This document shows positions 3,010 through 34,125 of a stretch of 34,509 nt of DNA, piece after piece. The position numbers and the translations under genes were made by a program. The first letter of the stretch is position 1; each line of letters begins with the position of its first letter. The notes beneath the pieces were generated by a model that searched no databases, was not told the DNA's origin, and worked only from the letters and a program-made list of their open reading frames with translations. Source of the DNA: a virus; IMG/VR virus record IMGVR_UViG_3300035680_000046, positions 1-34,509 of that record. One strand, written 5' to 3'.

Positions 3010-3389
3010 AACTGATATGTGTCTATTCGTTTCTTGACCATATCAATGAATCGCTCCATCATTGATGCATAGTATGAGTTAAAGTCTTGATGCCCCTCGT
3101 TGTTGTGTTCATATAGGACATACAGGGATGAACGCAGCCTCTGTGATGGAGTCTTGCCACCCAACTCTGCTGCATCTATCTTAATGGCATTTAGCATCTC
3201 TTCATCGTTGTAATTGAACTTCTCTCCTTTGAATGCCATAACACCAATGCCACCTACCCACTGGGACATCAACTCTGCTATCTGCCCGGGTGATAATTCT
3301 TGAGTGCCTATCACCACCCTAATGGTCTTGTCTTTTCTTGTTGCCACTGATTCGATGGCACAAGGGATTGTTAAAAGTTTAGCAGCCAT
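3006..3389 (-). CDS. Unknown protein (127 aa)
   Basis: No family is recognised. The first 40 residues are beta-rich and include a basic stretch (ESVATRKDKTIRVVIGTQEL); the rest is helical, ending MVKKRIDTYQL. A segment at about residues 36-55 (AELMSQWVGGIGVMAFKGE) has the look of a hydrophobic core. The start overlaps the end of the 67-aa gene by 11 bases and its stop overlaps the 78-aa gene by four. Non-homologous replacement or recombination accessory functions are common at this position; nothing in the sequence decides it. Confidence 0.75.
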   Translation of the reverse strand: MAAKLLTIPCAIESVATRKDKTIRVVIGTQELSPGQIAELMSQWVGGIGVMAFKGEKFNYNDEEMLNAIKIDAAELGGKTPSQRLRSSLYVLYEHNNEGHQDFNSYYASMMERFIDMVKKRIDTYQL

Positions 3390-16699: not shown

Positions 16700-17745
16700 T
16701 ATGGTAGAGCAGTTACATACTTATAATTCTTGCGACAATCCCAACAATGGTTATCGTCGGGTAGCCTCATATTCTTAATCAATGCCTCAAGTTCTAAATT
16801 ATAGTTCTCCATTGCAGTATCCCTTGCTGCCACAATTCCCTCAAATGCAGGAGCAGTTGCAAATGGCTTGCTACCCTTGTTGATTGTAATGGTAGTATTC
16901 ACTCGTTGGTTAGGTGCAATAGTGAGTGCATAGTTGTAAATCTCCACTGCGGTAAGGTATGCCAATGGCAATGCCATCAATCCACCCACTGAACACATCC
17001 AAGATTGTCTATCACAATTCACATTATAATTTAATGACATTCCTGTAGTGTATTTGGATGTCTTTGAGGATAGAACATCAGTACCATCGGTTGTCAATTC
17101 AATGCCAATGGCATCTACGAATGGACAAATGTGAGCCTCTCTTATATTGCCTCCGCAATCGTAACACGCACCCTTCTTTGGAATGAACTTGATGGTGTCA
17201 ATAGTTGACTCATACACAAATGCCAAATCTAATTTGCGCCTCCCTGCCTTAAATTCCGAACCAATGAATTGCTCAACTCCTCCCTCTGCATAGGTGATGG
17301 TCTTGATGAGTTTGAGAGTGGTCATATCAAAGACCAACACTGGGACATTTACACTTGCAGAATCAATAGCCAAATTAATATCAGAGATGTACAGATTCAG
17401 ATATGATAGATTGTTAGGGTCTATCTTGAGTCTGATGCCACCGTACTTTCCTACACCCAATTGAGTCTGCACATTTGAATAGTCTGTTAGGACTTGTCCT
17501 ATTCTCTTGCCTTCAATGATGGTATCTGCCTTCATCGCAGGAGTCAAACGCAGCAGAACATCAGATGACAACTTGCGCCAAGCAAACTGCCTCTTGTCAG
17601 TGAATAGGTCTACACCACTCACATATTGGTCTGTGATTACTTGACCTAGAAAAGTCTGACTTATACCTAGTTCATCAATATATAATCCTGTTGATGGTTC
17701 GGGCAAACTACATTCCTTTAGTCCAACTAGAGATTCAATGCACAT
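16699..17745 (-). CDS. Virion structural protein, Cys-rich (348 aa)
   Basis: The protein starts MCIESLVGLKECSLPEPSTG and continues LYIDELGISQTFLGQVITDQ, the pattern of a structural protein found downstream of the capsid gene in many Bacteroidetes phages. It is mostly beta-strand with a Cys cluster at about residues 194-208 (CYDCGGNIREAHIC) and another at the C-terminus (CWDCRKNY), perhaps metal-binding. It follows the terminator at 17767-17793. A tail, connector or head-decoration role is inferred from position only. Confidence 0.72.
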   Translation of the reverse strand: MCIESLVGLKECSLPEPSTGLYIDELGISQTFLGQVITDQYVSGVDLFTDKRQFAWRKLSSDVLLRLTPAMKADTIIEGKRIGQVLTDYSNVQTQLGVGKYGGIRLKIDPNNLSYLNLYISDINLAIDSASVNVPVLVFDMTTLKLIKTITYAEGGVEQFIGSEFKAGRRKLDLAFVYESTIDTIKFIPKKGACYDCGGNIREAHICPFVDAIGIELTTDGTDVLSSKTSKYTTGMSLNYNVNCDRQSWMCSVGGLMALPLAYLTAVEIYNYALTIAPNQRVNTTITINKGSKPFATAPAFEGIVAARDTAMENYNLELEALIKNMRLPDDNHCWDCRKNYKYVTALP

Positions 17746-17766
17746 TGTATTTGTTTTTGTAAAGAT

Positions 17767-17793
17767 AAAAAAAAGAGGGGATTGCTCCCCTCT
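17767..17793 (-). terminator. Intrinsic terminator after the capsid gene
   Basis: AGAGGGG and CCCCTCT (17774-17780 and 17787-17793) form a 7-bp stem with a six-base loop, followed on the minus strand by a run of eight T. It comes immediately after the stop of the frameshifted capsid extension at 17792. A TATCTTTA sequence, one base off the -7 consensus, overlaps the end of the T-run and may restart transcription for the next gene. Confidence 0.8.
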
Positions 17794-17881
17794 ATTCTGT
17801 GGTTAGATTATCTACACCATTCTGCACCAATATGTCCTCATCTGCTTGAGTGAGTAAACTTATTGGTGCATCTATGGGTTT
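17792..17881 (-). CDS. -1 frameshift extension of the major capsid protein (27 aa)
   Basis: At the end of the capsid frame the codons are GTA AAC CCA TAG. The heptamer A AAC CCA (17875-17881) fits the X XXY YYZ slippery rule. Slipping back one base leads into an open frame without its own start codon that adds IDAPISLLTQADEDI then LVQNGVDNLTTE, ending at TAG (17792-17794). Four bases after the heptamer a perfect 10-bp stem begins (TGCACCAATA at 17861-17870 with TATTGGTGCA at 17823-17832, 28-base loop). The added peptide resembles the C-terminus of the 552-aa tail protein (ILAEDGERLITQN). The product would be 374 aa next to the 347-aa main form. Confidence 0.65.
   Translation of the reverse strand, partial: KPIDAPISLLTQADEDILVQNGVDNLTTE
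17861..17881 (-). promoter_or_regulatory. Slippery site and stem for -1 frameshift in the capsid gene
   Basis: The slippery heptamer AAACCCA is followed by the zero-frame stop TAG, a four-base spacer in total, and the left arm of a perfect 10-bp inverted repeat whose right arm is 17823-17832. This is the usual arrangement of a bacterial or viral -1 frameshift stimulator. Confidence 0.65.
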
Positions 17882-18915
17882 ACGATGCTAACGCAGTTTA
17901 CATAGTTAACGCCACTGAACTTGTCAGATGCCTCGTAGATATCAGTCGGCAAAGTAACAATCTTCCCTGTTGTGGTTAGAACGATTGATAGATTACCGCA
18001 ATCATCCTTCATTGTCAAATCAACAGGCAATCCTGCCGGGGTGAAAACCAAAGTCTTTGAATAATTAGACCCTGCTACAGGAGTGATTCCTGCATTCCAA
18101 TCAGCAAGATTAAAAGATAGCCACTGAATTGCTCCTGCGGTAGTAACAAGTGCAGATAATTGGTCTCCTTGCGCTGCTGCTAAACGAGCATCGTAGGCGA
18201 AACCAAAACCATTCTGCTGACTGATGGCAAGCAAATCAATACCATATTGTGTGCAGCATCCTGCTTGAACTGCATTGGCATAACGCTGCATTGCAGCACC
18301 ACCAAATGCAATTGGAGCAGCAGGGTAGTTAGCCATACGAGATGCCTGTAAAATATCGGCAAGAGCGAATGGATTGAGTTCTGATGAACTTAACTCTGTT
18401 GCAATCTCAAGGCAATCTCCTGTAACTGAATAGTAGTTCTCAACATCAGTACCCCACTTACCAATCTCTGCTACTGCTTGAGTTGCTGCAACAGATGCCA
18501 CCTTGCGGTCTAACACATCCATCAAGCGCATTACAGACTCAAGTACATAACGAGAATTGTCTTGGCAATGACGAGCGATATCAGCAGCATTGATAAGTTG
18601 AGATGCTTGATAAGTATCAGTTACATCCAATGTGTAGGTAGTGGTAGAATCACCATAGGTATTGGTAGATGTACAAGTTAAGATGTCTCCATCTGCTTCT
18701 ACTTCAGTTTCGGGAAGACGCTGAATCCAACGTGCTTGCACGGTTTTCAACTTACCTCCCCCAGGTGAAACTTCTTGGCGAATTAATTTTACGTTTTCGG
18801 GTGACAACAAGAACTCCAAGAAAGGGAGTTGCTCACGTTGACCAACTTCGATAAAGAGTTCAGATAGTGACATCTGCACATTCGGACACTCTGAAAGTAT
18901 GCGTGAAATAGACAT
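17872..18915 (-). CDS. Major capsid protein (347 aa)
   Basis: The order scaffold, small gene, this gene, connector genes and the abundant-gene signature (own promoter, terminators on both sides) identify it as the main head subunit. The sequence is Ala, Thr and Ser-rich with an N-terminal arm (MSISRILSECPNVQMSLSEL) and a central part (NAADIARHCQDNSRYVLESV, then LDRKVASVAATQAVAE) that fits the long spine helix and P-domain region of HK97-type capsids. There is no recognisable maturation protease in the window. The C-terminal end carries a predicted -1 frameshift signal that would yield a longer minor form. Confidence 0.82.
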   Translation of the reverse strand: MSISRILSECPNVQMSLSELFIEVGQREQLPFLEFLLSPENVKLIRQEVSPGGGKLKTVQARWIQRLPETEVEADGDILTCTSTNTYGDSTTTYTLDVTDTYQASQLINAADIARHCQDNSRYVLESVMRLMDVLDRKVASVAATQAVAEIGKWGTDVENYYSVTGDCLEIATELSSSELNPFALADILQASRMANYPAAPIAFGGAAMQRYANAVQAGCCTQYGIDLLAISQQNGFGFAYDARLAAAQGDQLSALVTTAGAIQWLSFNLADWNAGITPVAGSNYSKTLVFTPAGLPVDLTMKDDCGNLSIVLTTTGKIVTLPTDIYEASDKFSGVNYVNCVSIVNP

Positions 18916-26660: not shown

Positions 26661-28319
26661 TTATTCTTGATACAAATTTATCAAGTTCTGCGTTATCAGT
26701 CGCTCACCGTCTTCTGCCAATATGAATGGTTCAGCATCATTGTCCAATATTGATGGCAAGCAATCAGCAGTCACCCCAATACAGATGGTCTTCCTCACCA
26801 AATCATTTTTCTTATATAACTCTATTGTGATTGCTCCAAGGTCATCTGCAATATCATATTCGATAGTTGGAAATTCCTCCTCCGCAGGGAAATGCAATAC
26901 ACCATTAACATAGCAATTATCAAAATAGAATACTATGCTCAAGAAATCGAATACATATTCGGGCAATCTACCAAAGTAGTATGATAGTTTCTTTTTTCGG
27001 TCTACATAAGATGCACTCCATCTGCCACTAGCATATCTGAATAGGTCTGTATCTGTATCGTATTGTGCTTGGAATCTTCTACCCTCTAATCGTATTGATG
27101 GCAAGAATGATGAGCCATAGAATGATAGACCAAATTGGTCTTCTCCATTGCATCCTTCTATCTTAAAGAATCTACAGGGATCTGAATAATCTCCTATTGT
27201 GATTAGGTCACTATACTTATCATATGTTGCCCACTCCTTGTAGGCTCTTAACTGAACTTGACTAACAACAATATTTCCTCCTGCTATTATCGAACTCCCT
27301 CTCAATGATATCTTACCACTACTTGTCGGAATGATGTTAGCAGTATATGTCCCTGCACTACTAAACGATGAAAGATATTGATTGCCATCAATCCATAATC
27401 TTAATGTGCAATCATTGATGCTATCAATCACAATAGTTATGCTATACTCCTTGCCTTCGCATACTTCAATAATAGACTCTAGTATGGTTACTTCTAGACC
27501 ATTGTTAAATATGATTTCCGCTTGCCCATTGCCTACAATCCAATTAGATGTACCAATGTCATATACGTTAACCCATCCAACAGGGGGACATCCAATGCAT
27601 AATCCCCAGTCATTAAAGTAAGGATTGTACATATAATACTGACCACAAGTGTTTAGACAATAATCGGCAATGGCTAACCTATAACATCCTGCTTCTAAAT
27701 CGTAGTCTGATAAATCAATGGCAGCAGTTAAGTATTGGTCTTTGGTTATGATTGTTGGGTTAAGTACTTGCACTACAGATAGGTCTTGTGCATCTACTAT
27801 CCCTGCGAATAATGCACCATTGCATATTGGCACAAACTCATCTAATGTCACTATTCCAACAAACTCATCTGTTGGTTTTGCTATGAGTAACAAGTCTATT
27901 GTAGGTGAATTCAAGTTGGCAGGAATAGCATCTGCCTTCAAGTAAATAACGTGAGTCCCTGCTGTGCTTACCTCTACTGATGTACCATTGGTGAATGCTA
28001 CAATCAAAGTACCTGTTGAACCTTGAGCAATGGTTATGGTAACACGATAGTCCAAGCAGTTTTGGAATTTCTCATAAATGAATCCTGCTAAACTATTACC
28101 TAAACTATCGGGGAATGTTATCTCATTACCATCTATTGATGTTGATACAACTATCGTATCTACCAATCTCAAGTATCCACACTCTCCTGCATCAAGTTGC
28201 CAAAAGATTTGGTCGTTAAAATCCATCAATTGAGCATACGAACTATTGCATCCTTCGCATTGTTCGGGCAGTTGGCTATCGAATATGATTGGTTGGTTTG
28301 GGATAGATGTATAACTCAT
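26661..28319 (-). CDS. Large distal tail or receptor-binding protein (552 aa)
   Basis: This protein is beta-rich with many Cys and aromatic residues, beginning MSYTSIPNQPIIFDSQLPEQ and CEGCNSSYAQLM. Segments around 245-355 (WIVGNGQAEIIFNNGLEVTI and CTLRLWIDGNQYL) look like a carbohydrate-binding beta-sandwich. The C-terminus ends in FILAEDGERLITQNLINLYQ, an acidic motif that recurs in the capsid frameshift tail. It starts four bases inside the end of the 676-aa tail protein. Position at the end of the tail operon fits receptor recognition, but no specific ligand is supported. Confidence 0.72.
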   Translation of the reverse strand: MSYTSIPNQPIIFDSQLPEQCEGCNSSYAQLMDFNDQIFWQLDAGECGYLRLVDTIVVSTSIDGNEITFPDSLGNSLAGFIYEKFQNCLDYRVTITIAQGSTGTLIVAFTNGTSVEVSTAGTHVIYLKADAIPANLNSPTIDLLLIAKPTDEFVGIVTLDEFVPICNGALFAGIVDAQDLSVVQVLNPTIITKDQYLTAAIDLSDYDLEAGCYRLAIADYCLNTCGQYYMYNPYFNDWGLCIGCPPVGWVNVYDIGTSNWIVGNGQAEIIFNNGLEVTILESIIEVCEGKEYSITIVIDSINDCTLRLWIDGNQYLSSFSSAGTYTANIIPTSSGKISLRGSSIIAGGNIVVSQVQLRAYKEWATYDKYSDLITIGDYSDPCRFFKIEGCNGEDQFGLSFYGSSFLPSIRLEGRRFQAQYDTDTDLFRYASGRWSASYVDRKKKLSYYFGRLPEYVFDFLSIVFYFDNCYVNGVLHFPAEEEFPTIEYDIADDLGAITIELYKKNDLVRKTICIGVTADCLPSILDNDAEPFILAEDGERLITQNLINLYQE

Positions 28320-33300: not shown

Positions 33301-33375
33301 GTTTACTGAATTAATTGCTGCCTTTAAATCATTGGCATCTCCAGTATAAGTGATTAAAACATTAGCCGATGCCAT
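30331..33375 (-). CDS. Tape measure protein (1014 aa)
   Basis: The tape measure sets tail length and passes into the tail lumen. The first 350 residues are helical, followed by a hydrophobic segment (about 308-326, LVASGIGAVVVLLGLLAEKI) and a very long Ala, Glu, Lys, Gln-rich coiled-coil region (about 340-860). Near the end there is a second hydrophobic region (AAGLLGAAQLAVITSQPLPK) followed by KFKKGGMVGGKSHEQGG and AERGEFVMNK, a C-terminal signature of phage tape measure proteins. The tail length implied is roughly 1.5 angstrom per residue, about 150 nm. It starts 14 bases inside the frameshifted chaperone frame. Confidence 0.95.
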   Translation of the reverse strand: MASANVLITYTGDANDLKAAINSVNEVNNEAVKSAQKSANAIVDAYKESIKGASTALKGDFLKNAINGQVKLIKTLGDAGVALKPLKDGLDETNKKLKLIINNEDDLKKLEDRLRKLSLEGKRNTEEFDKTARAIGEYKAAIIAADRAVDLYAKSTDAATGRIGELEDKLYDLALAGKSNTTEFNTLIKEVAKLKRGIVETDAQVDALVQRGRGLTGFVQSVELVGVAFQAVEGAAALVGDESEDLQKTLVKLNALIAITSALEQGRTIILEQLRAKTGLVAVATKLYSFVTEGATLKTKAFRATLVASGIGAVVVLLGLLAEKIFATGDASKEAADKAKEYQDAINSLAKSSTDAAINAANAQIEANQKAGNITEEAAARLIAFNNLQKELSDITINTKEQETEAFKRYEEQKAEDIKLFGKVAKVTEEQLFKDLQAINKAAQDNEKAAKTKTQTEISELNKKFAQDQANDLLKIAEQRIRQELEIDGESQSERIRLAQNLAKQEVLNAQQSIKNEVLKAATIRRINAELANEIAAIKLDEQKKAIELQVLQLENVTALGNATLQQEIDLANKRADLAKKEAESETDPLKRAELVKKAETDAANTIRDLNNQALAQELALNEARVQLRQATGDLTLQTQEDLINAQFASREQALKAEAAQTIEGQKKLAVDLQLLETEKQNALAGIRTEYANNELEIENIKIRTLITLGKDSAVDRIKLAQNELEQKKKLIDAELISDKEKQAKIAQAEAETQVKIRAERKKTLDDIVEIAQETANIFSGFAQAAQDQSNIIIEQITRQSEVELEAINATNEREADKQRKRAALEKRTNAAIAAEKTKQAKLDRAVAAFNVVVNTASYIIRLGEQLGIAAPPFQIAAGLLGAAQLAVITSQPLPKFKKGGMVGGKSHEQGGTIIEAERGEFVMNKNSTSEHRKALDAMNTSSTAFKKFIDERYVRPAILDYAMKSKDKAVVVNASLNSKSMERKLDKLNKSMKNNNIIVNIGGDNSRYEWRNR

Positions 33376-33514
33376 CCTTTTTACTTTGCTTTATTGACAT
33401 CTCAAATTTAAGCAAATAAGTTGATACATCACCTCTCATAAGTTCATTGAATTCAACGATGTTGCCTTTGCATAGGTTGATGATTTGAGTCCTTAATTCT
33501 TCTTGGACTTTTTT
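33362..33514 (-). CDS. Tail assembly chaperone, T extension by -1 frameshift
   Basis: The open frame to 33592 has no independent need of a start: the classic heptamer A AAA AAG at 33508-33514 lets ribosomes leave the first chaperone frame and continue here. The extension is 48 residues, beginning VQEELRTQIINLCKGNIVEF and ending KKDGIG. The fusion would be about 254 aa. Such fusions bind the tape measure and the tail tube during assembly in phages such as lambda. The frame ends 14 bases into the tape measure gene. Confidence 0.85.
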   Translation of the reverse strand, partial: KKVQEELRTQIINLCKGNIVEFNELMRGDVSTYLLKFEMSIKQSKKDGIG

Positions 33515-34125
33515 TGCACGGACTCTTGGTGAGTATTGAGCATAGTCAAACTCTCCATTAGTTTTCTTTGTGCCACTACGTTGTACTCCCACAATGTCTG
33601 CAATTCTTGAGGAGACATAGTTAGCAATGGCAATAGTGGTGTGATACCCAATTGGGAAAAAAAATCGTGCGACCCCTCCTTACACATCGCATCGAATACC
33701 TCAAGTTTAGATTGGTGAATATCTGCATTAACTATGGTTGGGTCTTCATCATCCCTCACTACCCATACTGCTGCAAAGTTCAATAGTAGGTCACGATGTA
33801 TAACAGAGTTCTGTCTCTCTCTGATAACGTGAATGTATCCTGCCACAACTGCTGCATTCTTTGGGTTAGACAATCCTGCTGCTAATGATTTCTCCATACC
33901 CTCTAGTATCTGCTCCATCTCATTCCCACTCAATCCACTGCTTATTCTCTCCATCAGACTCAATGCCATACTGAATCTCTCCAGTGGCAATGATGTCTCT
34001 TTAGGGAATCTGTAGTATCGATGCGCACCGTGCTTGAATACCTCAACTAGATTATAGTTGGTTGTTGGCTTCTTATTGGAACGTAACCAAGGCAGTTGCC
34101 TTGCTAATCTTTTTAATGATGTCAT
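33493..34125 (-). CDS. Tail assembly chaperone, G protein (210 aa)
   Basis: This is the short form of the tail chaperone pair, immediately upstream of the tape measure. It is mostly helical (RFSMALSLMERISSGLSGNE) and ends QESVQKKSKKN. The codons CAA AAA AAG near the end contain the slippery heptamer A AAA AAG, and the -1 frame continues for 48 codons. The position and frameshift are the hallmark of the G/GT pair in long-tailed phages. It overlaps the previous 95-aa gene by 53 bases, more than the other junctions; a later start is not obvious. Confidence 0.85.
   Translation of the reverse strand: MTSLKRLARQLPWLRSNKKPTTNYNLVEVFKHGAHRYYRFPKETSLPLERFSMALSLMERISSGLSGNEMEQILEGMEKSLAAGLSNPKNAAVVAGYIHVIRERQNSVIHRDLLLNFAAVWVVRDDEDPTIVNADIHQSKLEVFDAMCKEGSHDFFSQLGITPLLPLLTMSPQELQTLWEYNVVAQRKLMESLTMLNTHQESVQKKSKKN
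33508..33514 (-). promoter_or_regulatory. Slippery heptamer AAAAAAG for the tail chaperone frameshift
   Basis: On the minus strand the codons are CAA AAA AAG TCC; the A AAA AAG heptamer permits both tRNAs to slip back one base onto AAA AAA. The -1 frame is open for 48 codons beyond it and the zero frame stops five codons later. Confidence 0.85.

Follow-up and report, generated by a model that had tools for sequence, protein, structure and literature searches.

Comparative support for a putative -1 frameshift site at the end of the presumed major capsid gene in a group of uncultured phages

Introduction

Extensions of coat proteins by ribosomal frameshifting are established for phages T7 and T3 and for Listeria phages (PMC5009743). 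In gene 10 of T7 (products 10A and 10B) and gene 10 of T3 the shift is -1, lies at the end of the coat gene and gives a minor, extended form (PMC5009743), and the same arrangement is proposed here for the end of a putative coat gene. The details differ, however. T7 uses a G_GU-type site with a long-range CCCC stimulator more than 200 nt downstream (PMC5009743), while the site described here, A_AAC_CCR, abuts the stop codon; the T3 extension is Ig-like (PMC5009743), while the present one is a tag of 25-28 aa with an adjacent, covarying hairpin. The coat genes of Listeria phages A118 and A500 likewise give a capsid extension by -1 frameshifting, and the cps gene of PSA uses a +1 shift at ACA_CCC with a pseudoknot; PSA and our locus both involve a proline codon together with a structure on the 3' side (PMC5009743). 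The hosts of the Listeria phages belong to another phylum, and the likeness considered here is one of frameshift features.

Two further systems are of relevance. In SPP1 the tail tube protein is made as gp17.1 and gp17.1* by slippage at CCC_UAA, in a ratio of 3:1 in virions (PMC6316719). It has in common with the present locus a proline codon next to the stop and a C-terminal addition to a structural protein (PMC6316719), but differs in the +1 direction, in the gene concerned and in the size of the addition, which is 87 aa and FN3-like. The lambda-type G/GT genes also shift to the -1 frame within a structural operon of a phage, but their product is a chaperone rather than a virion protein, and the slip site is canonical and A-rich. 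According to the classical X_XXY_YYZ rule Y is A or U, a rule which phage data are reported to disobey (PMC10885494). In the literature we found no described capsid frameshift for the phage group treated here. New in the present case are the phage group, the stop-abutting slip site A_AAC_CCR with its proline codon, and the very short acidic tag.

Materials and Methods

The window, i.e., the whole stretch of DNA analyzed, comprises 34,509 nt of the IMG/VR record IMGVR_UViG_3300035680_000046. The comparison set consisted of 133 non-redundant loci containing the end of the 347-aa gene, with protein identities of 69-100%, collected by scans of the viral collection and by one search of contigs with the 552-aa protein. 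The last scan gave four further loci, which were read by eye only and stand beyond the 133. For comparison of the hairpin with synonymous recodings, the downstream 54 nt of 74 distinct sequences were recoded with the gene's own codon usage.

Results

All elements claimed in the original prediction were located on the minus strand of the window. The 347-aa ORF ends in GTA AAC CCA TAG, and the elements around this end are as follows.

17872-18915, minus strand: putative major capsid ORF, zero frame, 347 aa, 37.4 kDa, ending ...SIVNP and stop
17875-17881, minus strand: slip site A_AAC_CCA, directly 5' of the zero-frame stop
17872-17874, minus strand: zero-frame stop codon TAG, abutting the slip site
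17823-17870, minus strand: RNA hairpin with a 10-bp outer stem (17861-17870 with 17823-17832) and inner helices, 4 nt past the heptamer
17792-17875, minus strand: -1 frame extension, 27 codons and stop, IDAPISLLTQADEDILVQNGVDNLTTE, adding 2.9 kDa, predicted pI 4.05
17774-17793, minus strand: intrinsic terminator closing the unit, found by terminator scan and overlapping the TAG of the extension
26661-26732, minus strand: C-terminus and stop of a 552-aa putative tail protein, EPFILAEDGERLITQNLINLYQE, resembling the extension tag

The heptamer A_AAC_CCA reads from 17881 to 17875, the perfect 10-bp inverted repeat with its 4-nt spacer was found as described, and the -1 frame encodes the 27 residues of IDAPISLLTQADEDILVQNGVDNLTTE before the TAG at 17794-17792 closes it. 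Two points of the prediction had to be adjusted. The -1 frame was said to have no start codon of its own, which holds for ATG, but an in-frame TTG-GTG occurs in the middle of the extension, from which at most ~12 residues could be made. The other point, the weight of the heptamer by itself, is taken up below. The predicted fusion form has 374 aa and 40.3 kDa, compared with 37.4 kDa for the zero-frame protein. Between the terminator and the next gene, at 17745-17775 on the minus strand, there is a promoter-like stretch of the TATCTTTACA type, the counterpart of which in relatives is TATCTTTG; it resembles the Bacteroidota promoter motif TAnnTTTG. A search of Rfam gave no match within the window.

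By its position the 347-aa ORF would encode the major capsid protein. It sits between the portal block and the tail genes, preceded by a portal gene which was recognized by a PHROG match and by BLASTP to the portal of PDS1 (E = 6e-9), and the annotated capsid gene of PDS1-like phages occupies the same position. Sequence searches of Pfam, PHROGs and PDB found no family for the protein, two AlphaFold runs reached pLDDT of only 31 and 36, and Foldseek was uninformative. In hhalign the protein was co-linear with the PDS1/B40-8 capsid at a non-significant E = 0.21, and tblastn of the phage collection gave no match to the capsid, so it was not placed in the B40-8/PDS1 capsid family.

Eighty relatives of the 347-aa protein were found in IMG/VR at 82-96% identity. 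No relative was found in bacterial and archaeal genomes, and tblastn against named phages with either the capsid or the 552-aa protein gave no match. The tape-measure protein matched Bacteroidota phages only, the best terminase match was Flavobacterium phage 11b, and the nearest cultured relatives of the group by portal and tape-measure infect Bacteroidota. The group, which is uncultured and widespread, probably has its hosts among the Bacteroidota. Bacteroides phage B40-8, Parabacteroides phage PDS1 and Flavobacterium phages FPSV have a related portal and a similar order of head genes, but 13 capsid ends from these phages showed no comparable -1 tag.

The extension, 25-28 codons long and always in the -1 frame, was present in 109 of the 133 loci, down to 69% protein identity, and absent from the other 24. 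A typical peptide among the relatives is VIGSVGLLSQADEDLLTQDGLDNLTTQ. The 109 include three loci with a diverged version of the tag (L365, L369, L376), LISKxFQDGFxFQFQSGED, following an AAACCCG-TAA site. With just 25-28 aa the extension falls short of an Ig-like domain. Its length varies by whole codons, and parsimony changes in the core set were distributed as 159/86/267 over the three positions of the -1 codons (chi-square p ~8e-22). The last codons, situated past the hairpin, gave 55/33/100, and base pairing of the RNA cannot therefore be the cause of this bias. These patterns show that the -1 frame evolves as protein, under amino-acid constraint.

The heptamer fits the X_XXY_YYZ pattern in the zero frame as A_AAC_CCR, with an unusual Y = C. 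Across the predicted genes of the window 27 in-frame X_XXY_YYZ heptamers were counted, five of them near a gene end, and A_AAC_CCR itself is in frame at one place only, the capsid end. The heptamer by itself is weak evidence for frameshifting; it is the joint conservation in the relatives that lifts the site above chance. Indeed, AAACCC[A/G] was present in 106 of 109 relatives with the extension versus four of 24 without it (Fisher p ~6e-17, with relatedness ignored). The element C_CC[A/G] was invariant in all 109, where the zero-frame proline codon was CCG or CCA only, while the commonest codon in loci lacking the extension was CCT (11 of 24). The zero-frame stop abuts the slip site in 100 of the 109 loci and comes one codon further in nine. 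In three relatives of the main set (L039, L043, L049) the extension is kept with GTC CCG in place of AAC CCG; in these, as well as in L404, AAAC is replaced by (AAT/AAC)GTC. The full heptamer is therefore not essential, and C_CCR is the minimal element. The distant L404, also retaining the extension, reads GTC CCG TAA before the capsid stop, at about position 3042 of that locus.

The hairpin of the window has a minimum free energy of -19.9 kcal/mol, compared with -9.6 +/- 2.5 for dinucleotide shuffles (z = -4.1). Relative to synonymous recodings that leave the peptide unchanged, the mean z was -4.2 for the 74 sequences, and -3.9 for the window. The stem begins 5-6 nt past the slip site in 63 of the 74 and 4 nt past it in the window; a stimulatory structure is expected ~5-9 nt downstream, and the covarying hairpin typically lies at this distance. 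Base pairs were canonical in 95% of cases in the main group, with seven of 13 pairs doubly changed, versus 26-50% in slid controls, and a group with a bulged hairpin was 96% paired versus 23-45%. A count of 21 sequences gave 93.4% paired versus 26-49% in slid controls, and none of 500 shuffles matched the paired fraction or the covariation score; doubly changed pairs alone were less decisive in these 21 sequences, being matched by 28 of 500 shuffles. The covarying arms include GGGTC/GACCC, GCGTC/GACGC, GGGTTAA/TTAACCC, TGCACC/GGTGCA and TGCTCC/GGAGCA. Because plain and bulged registers were mixed in the full alignment, RNAalifold found a weak consensus for it, and treating the two registers separately solved this. 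The compensatory changes and the comparison with recodings show that the hairpin is maintained as RNA structure. The three loci with the diverged tag have a weaker, different hairpin, TCCTGA with TCAGGA. In one locus, L172, the extension is kept despite a broken hairpin; its arms come from different variants and pair poorly, and the contig is possibly recombinant or chimeric.

Heptamer, stem and -1 frame, whose joint conservation the original prediction had put forward as a check, were found conserved together in 109 of 133 relatives. The opposite pattern, a capsid gene kept without the heptamer or without the -1 frame, had been named as evidence against frameshifting, and was seen in a minority, mostly as loss of both. 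The capsid tree contains ten clades without the extension, of which seven lack the heptamer throughout, one is mixed and two keep it. Three relatives (L063, L079, L240) have the heptamer and no extension. Up to ~10 lineages have lost the extension, usually along with the heptamer (nine Fitch changes). Such repeated loss indicates that the extension is dispensable, though mostly maintained, and co-loss in a minority would fit a dispensable extra.

Discussion

The putative major capsid gene very probably ends in a site of programmed -1 ribosomal frameshifting, formed by its last codons. This reading is strongly supported by comparison, and the protein-like -1 frame, the compensatory changes in the stem and the frequent co-loss of heptamer and extension all support the original prediction. 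Frameshifting itself, its efficiency and the presence of its product in virions we infer from the sequences. The majority of ribosomes would terminate at the TAG or TAA and give the 347-aa form. A minority would encounter the hairpin during decoding or termination at the last codons, upon which tRNA-Asn and tRNA-Pro, or at least tRNA-Pro on C_CCR, could re-pair one base upstream. Translation would then continue for 25-28 codons to a form ~3 kDa larger, carrying a short acidic tag rich in Leu and Gln.

The spacing favours the textbook tandem slip, in which CCR occupies the A site, while the invariance of C_CCR and the adjacent stop leave room for the slip of a single tRNA-Pro; the product of both would be the same. 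For the single slip, tRNA-Pro in the P site on CCR would move to CCC while the stop codon occupies the A site, termination after a C-terminal proline being slow enough to permit it and AAAC merely helping. We hold this version to be possible, though rather doubtful. It would account for C_CCR being invariant in 109 of 109 where A_AA is not, for the stop being adjacent in 100 of them and for the retention of the extension by GTC CCG TAA variants from separate groups, and stop-adjacent proline codons are known as +1 sites, namely CCC_UAA in SPP1 (PMC6316719) and CCC_UGA in Listeria phages (PMC5009743). However, a sense codon separates CCG from the stop in nine relatives, a stop in the A site leaves ~2 nt to the stem, below the usual spacer, and AAAC is retained in 106 of 109.

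Further explanations were considered. The hairpin lies just 5' of an intrinsic terminator and could be a 3'-end or termination element, with the -1 frame as an untranslated remnant, but the amino-acid constraint extends outside the hairpin, length changes are codon-sized only, the hairpin lacks its own T-run and its spacing to the slip site is nearly fixed, which leaves this explanation highly improbable. The overlap of the -1 ORF with the stop codon, and a TTG somewhere in its frame in 107 of 109 loci, would suit a separate short peptide made by termination and reinitiation. Yet ATG, GTG or TTG occurs within the first ten codons in only 35 of 109, so that reinitiation would leave most of the conserved N-terminal part untranslated, and the conserved slip site and its co-loss would stay unexplained; we give this extremely little weight. 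An indel from assembly or sequencing, the tag being truly in frame with the capsid, would also produce an out-of-frame continuation, but the identical frame relation recurs in more than 100 contigs from many metagenomes, and this replication already refutes it to a practically negligible probability. Readthrough of the stop codon was rejected, as translation would then continue in a frame other than the conserved one, and so was transcriptional slippage, there being no homopolymer run at the site.

If the frameshift product is made as proposed, the tag, which we judge dispensable because of its repeated loss, would most likely form a tail that is exposed at the surface or binds a partner, carried by a minority of the subunits. 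The C-terminus of the 552-aa protein does resemble the tag, as claimed, though modestly. EPFILAEDGERLITQNLINLYQE was the best of 45 C-termini in the window against the extension set, and none of 1000 shuffles reached its score; the window's own tag alone scored 27, unremarkable compared with internal segments of other proteins. An HMM of the extensions run against the window did not retrieve the 552-aa protein, only direct alignment of the C-termini finding the likeness, and a shared origin is therefore a lead and not a result. As a phage-wide motif the tag gave no match when the phage collection was searched up to E = 10. A binding partner shared by the tag and the 552-aa C-terminus is a reasonable guess. 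One may speculate further, with little confidence, that Bacteroidota phages have a stop-adjacent -1 class, with a slipping tRNA-Pro on C_CCR plus a hairpin as its essential element, which puts the terminal Leu-Gln-Asp motif of the tail protein on a few capsid subunits as a shared head/tail address or adhesion tag. The 552-aa protein (26661-28319, minus strand) has a strongly conserved C-terminal motif in relatives, EPFILTQDxERxxTQxxINLYQE, which is kept where the capsid extension is missing (L264, L277, L296).

If the frameshift reading is right, this widespread group of uncultured phages should make a virion protein in two forms, and gene callers, which end at the zero-frame stop, would overlook the extension. 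As a compact, naturally occurring cassette whose proline slip site is unusual, and of which nature provides dozens of variants and matched losses, the locus makes the rules for slip site and hairpin testable beyond the classical hosts.

A second candidate site was noticed in the window at 33362-34125 (minus strand). There A_AAA_AAG lies in frame close to the end of a 210-aa ORF, and the -1 frame continues for ~50 codons, overlapping the start of the tape-measure gene. By its sequence this is likely a -1 frameshift of the G/GT tail-assembly-chaperone type.
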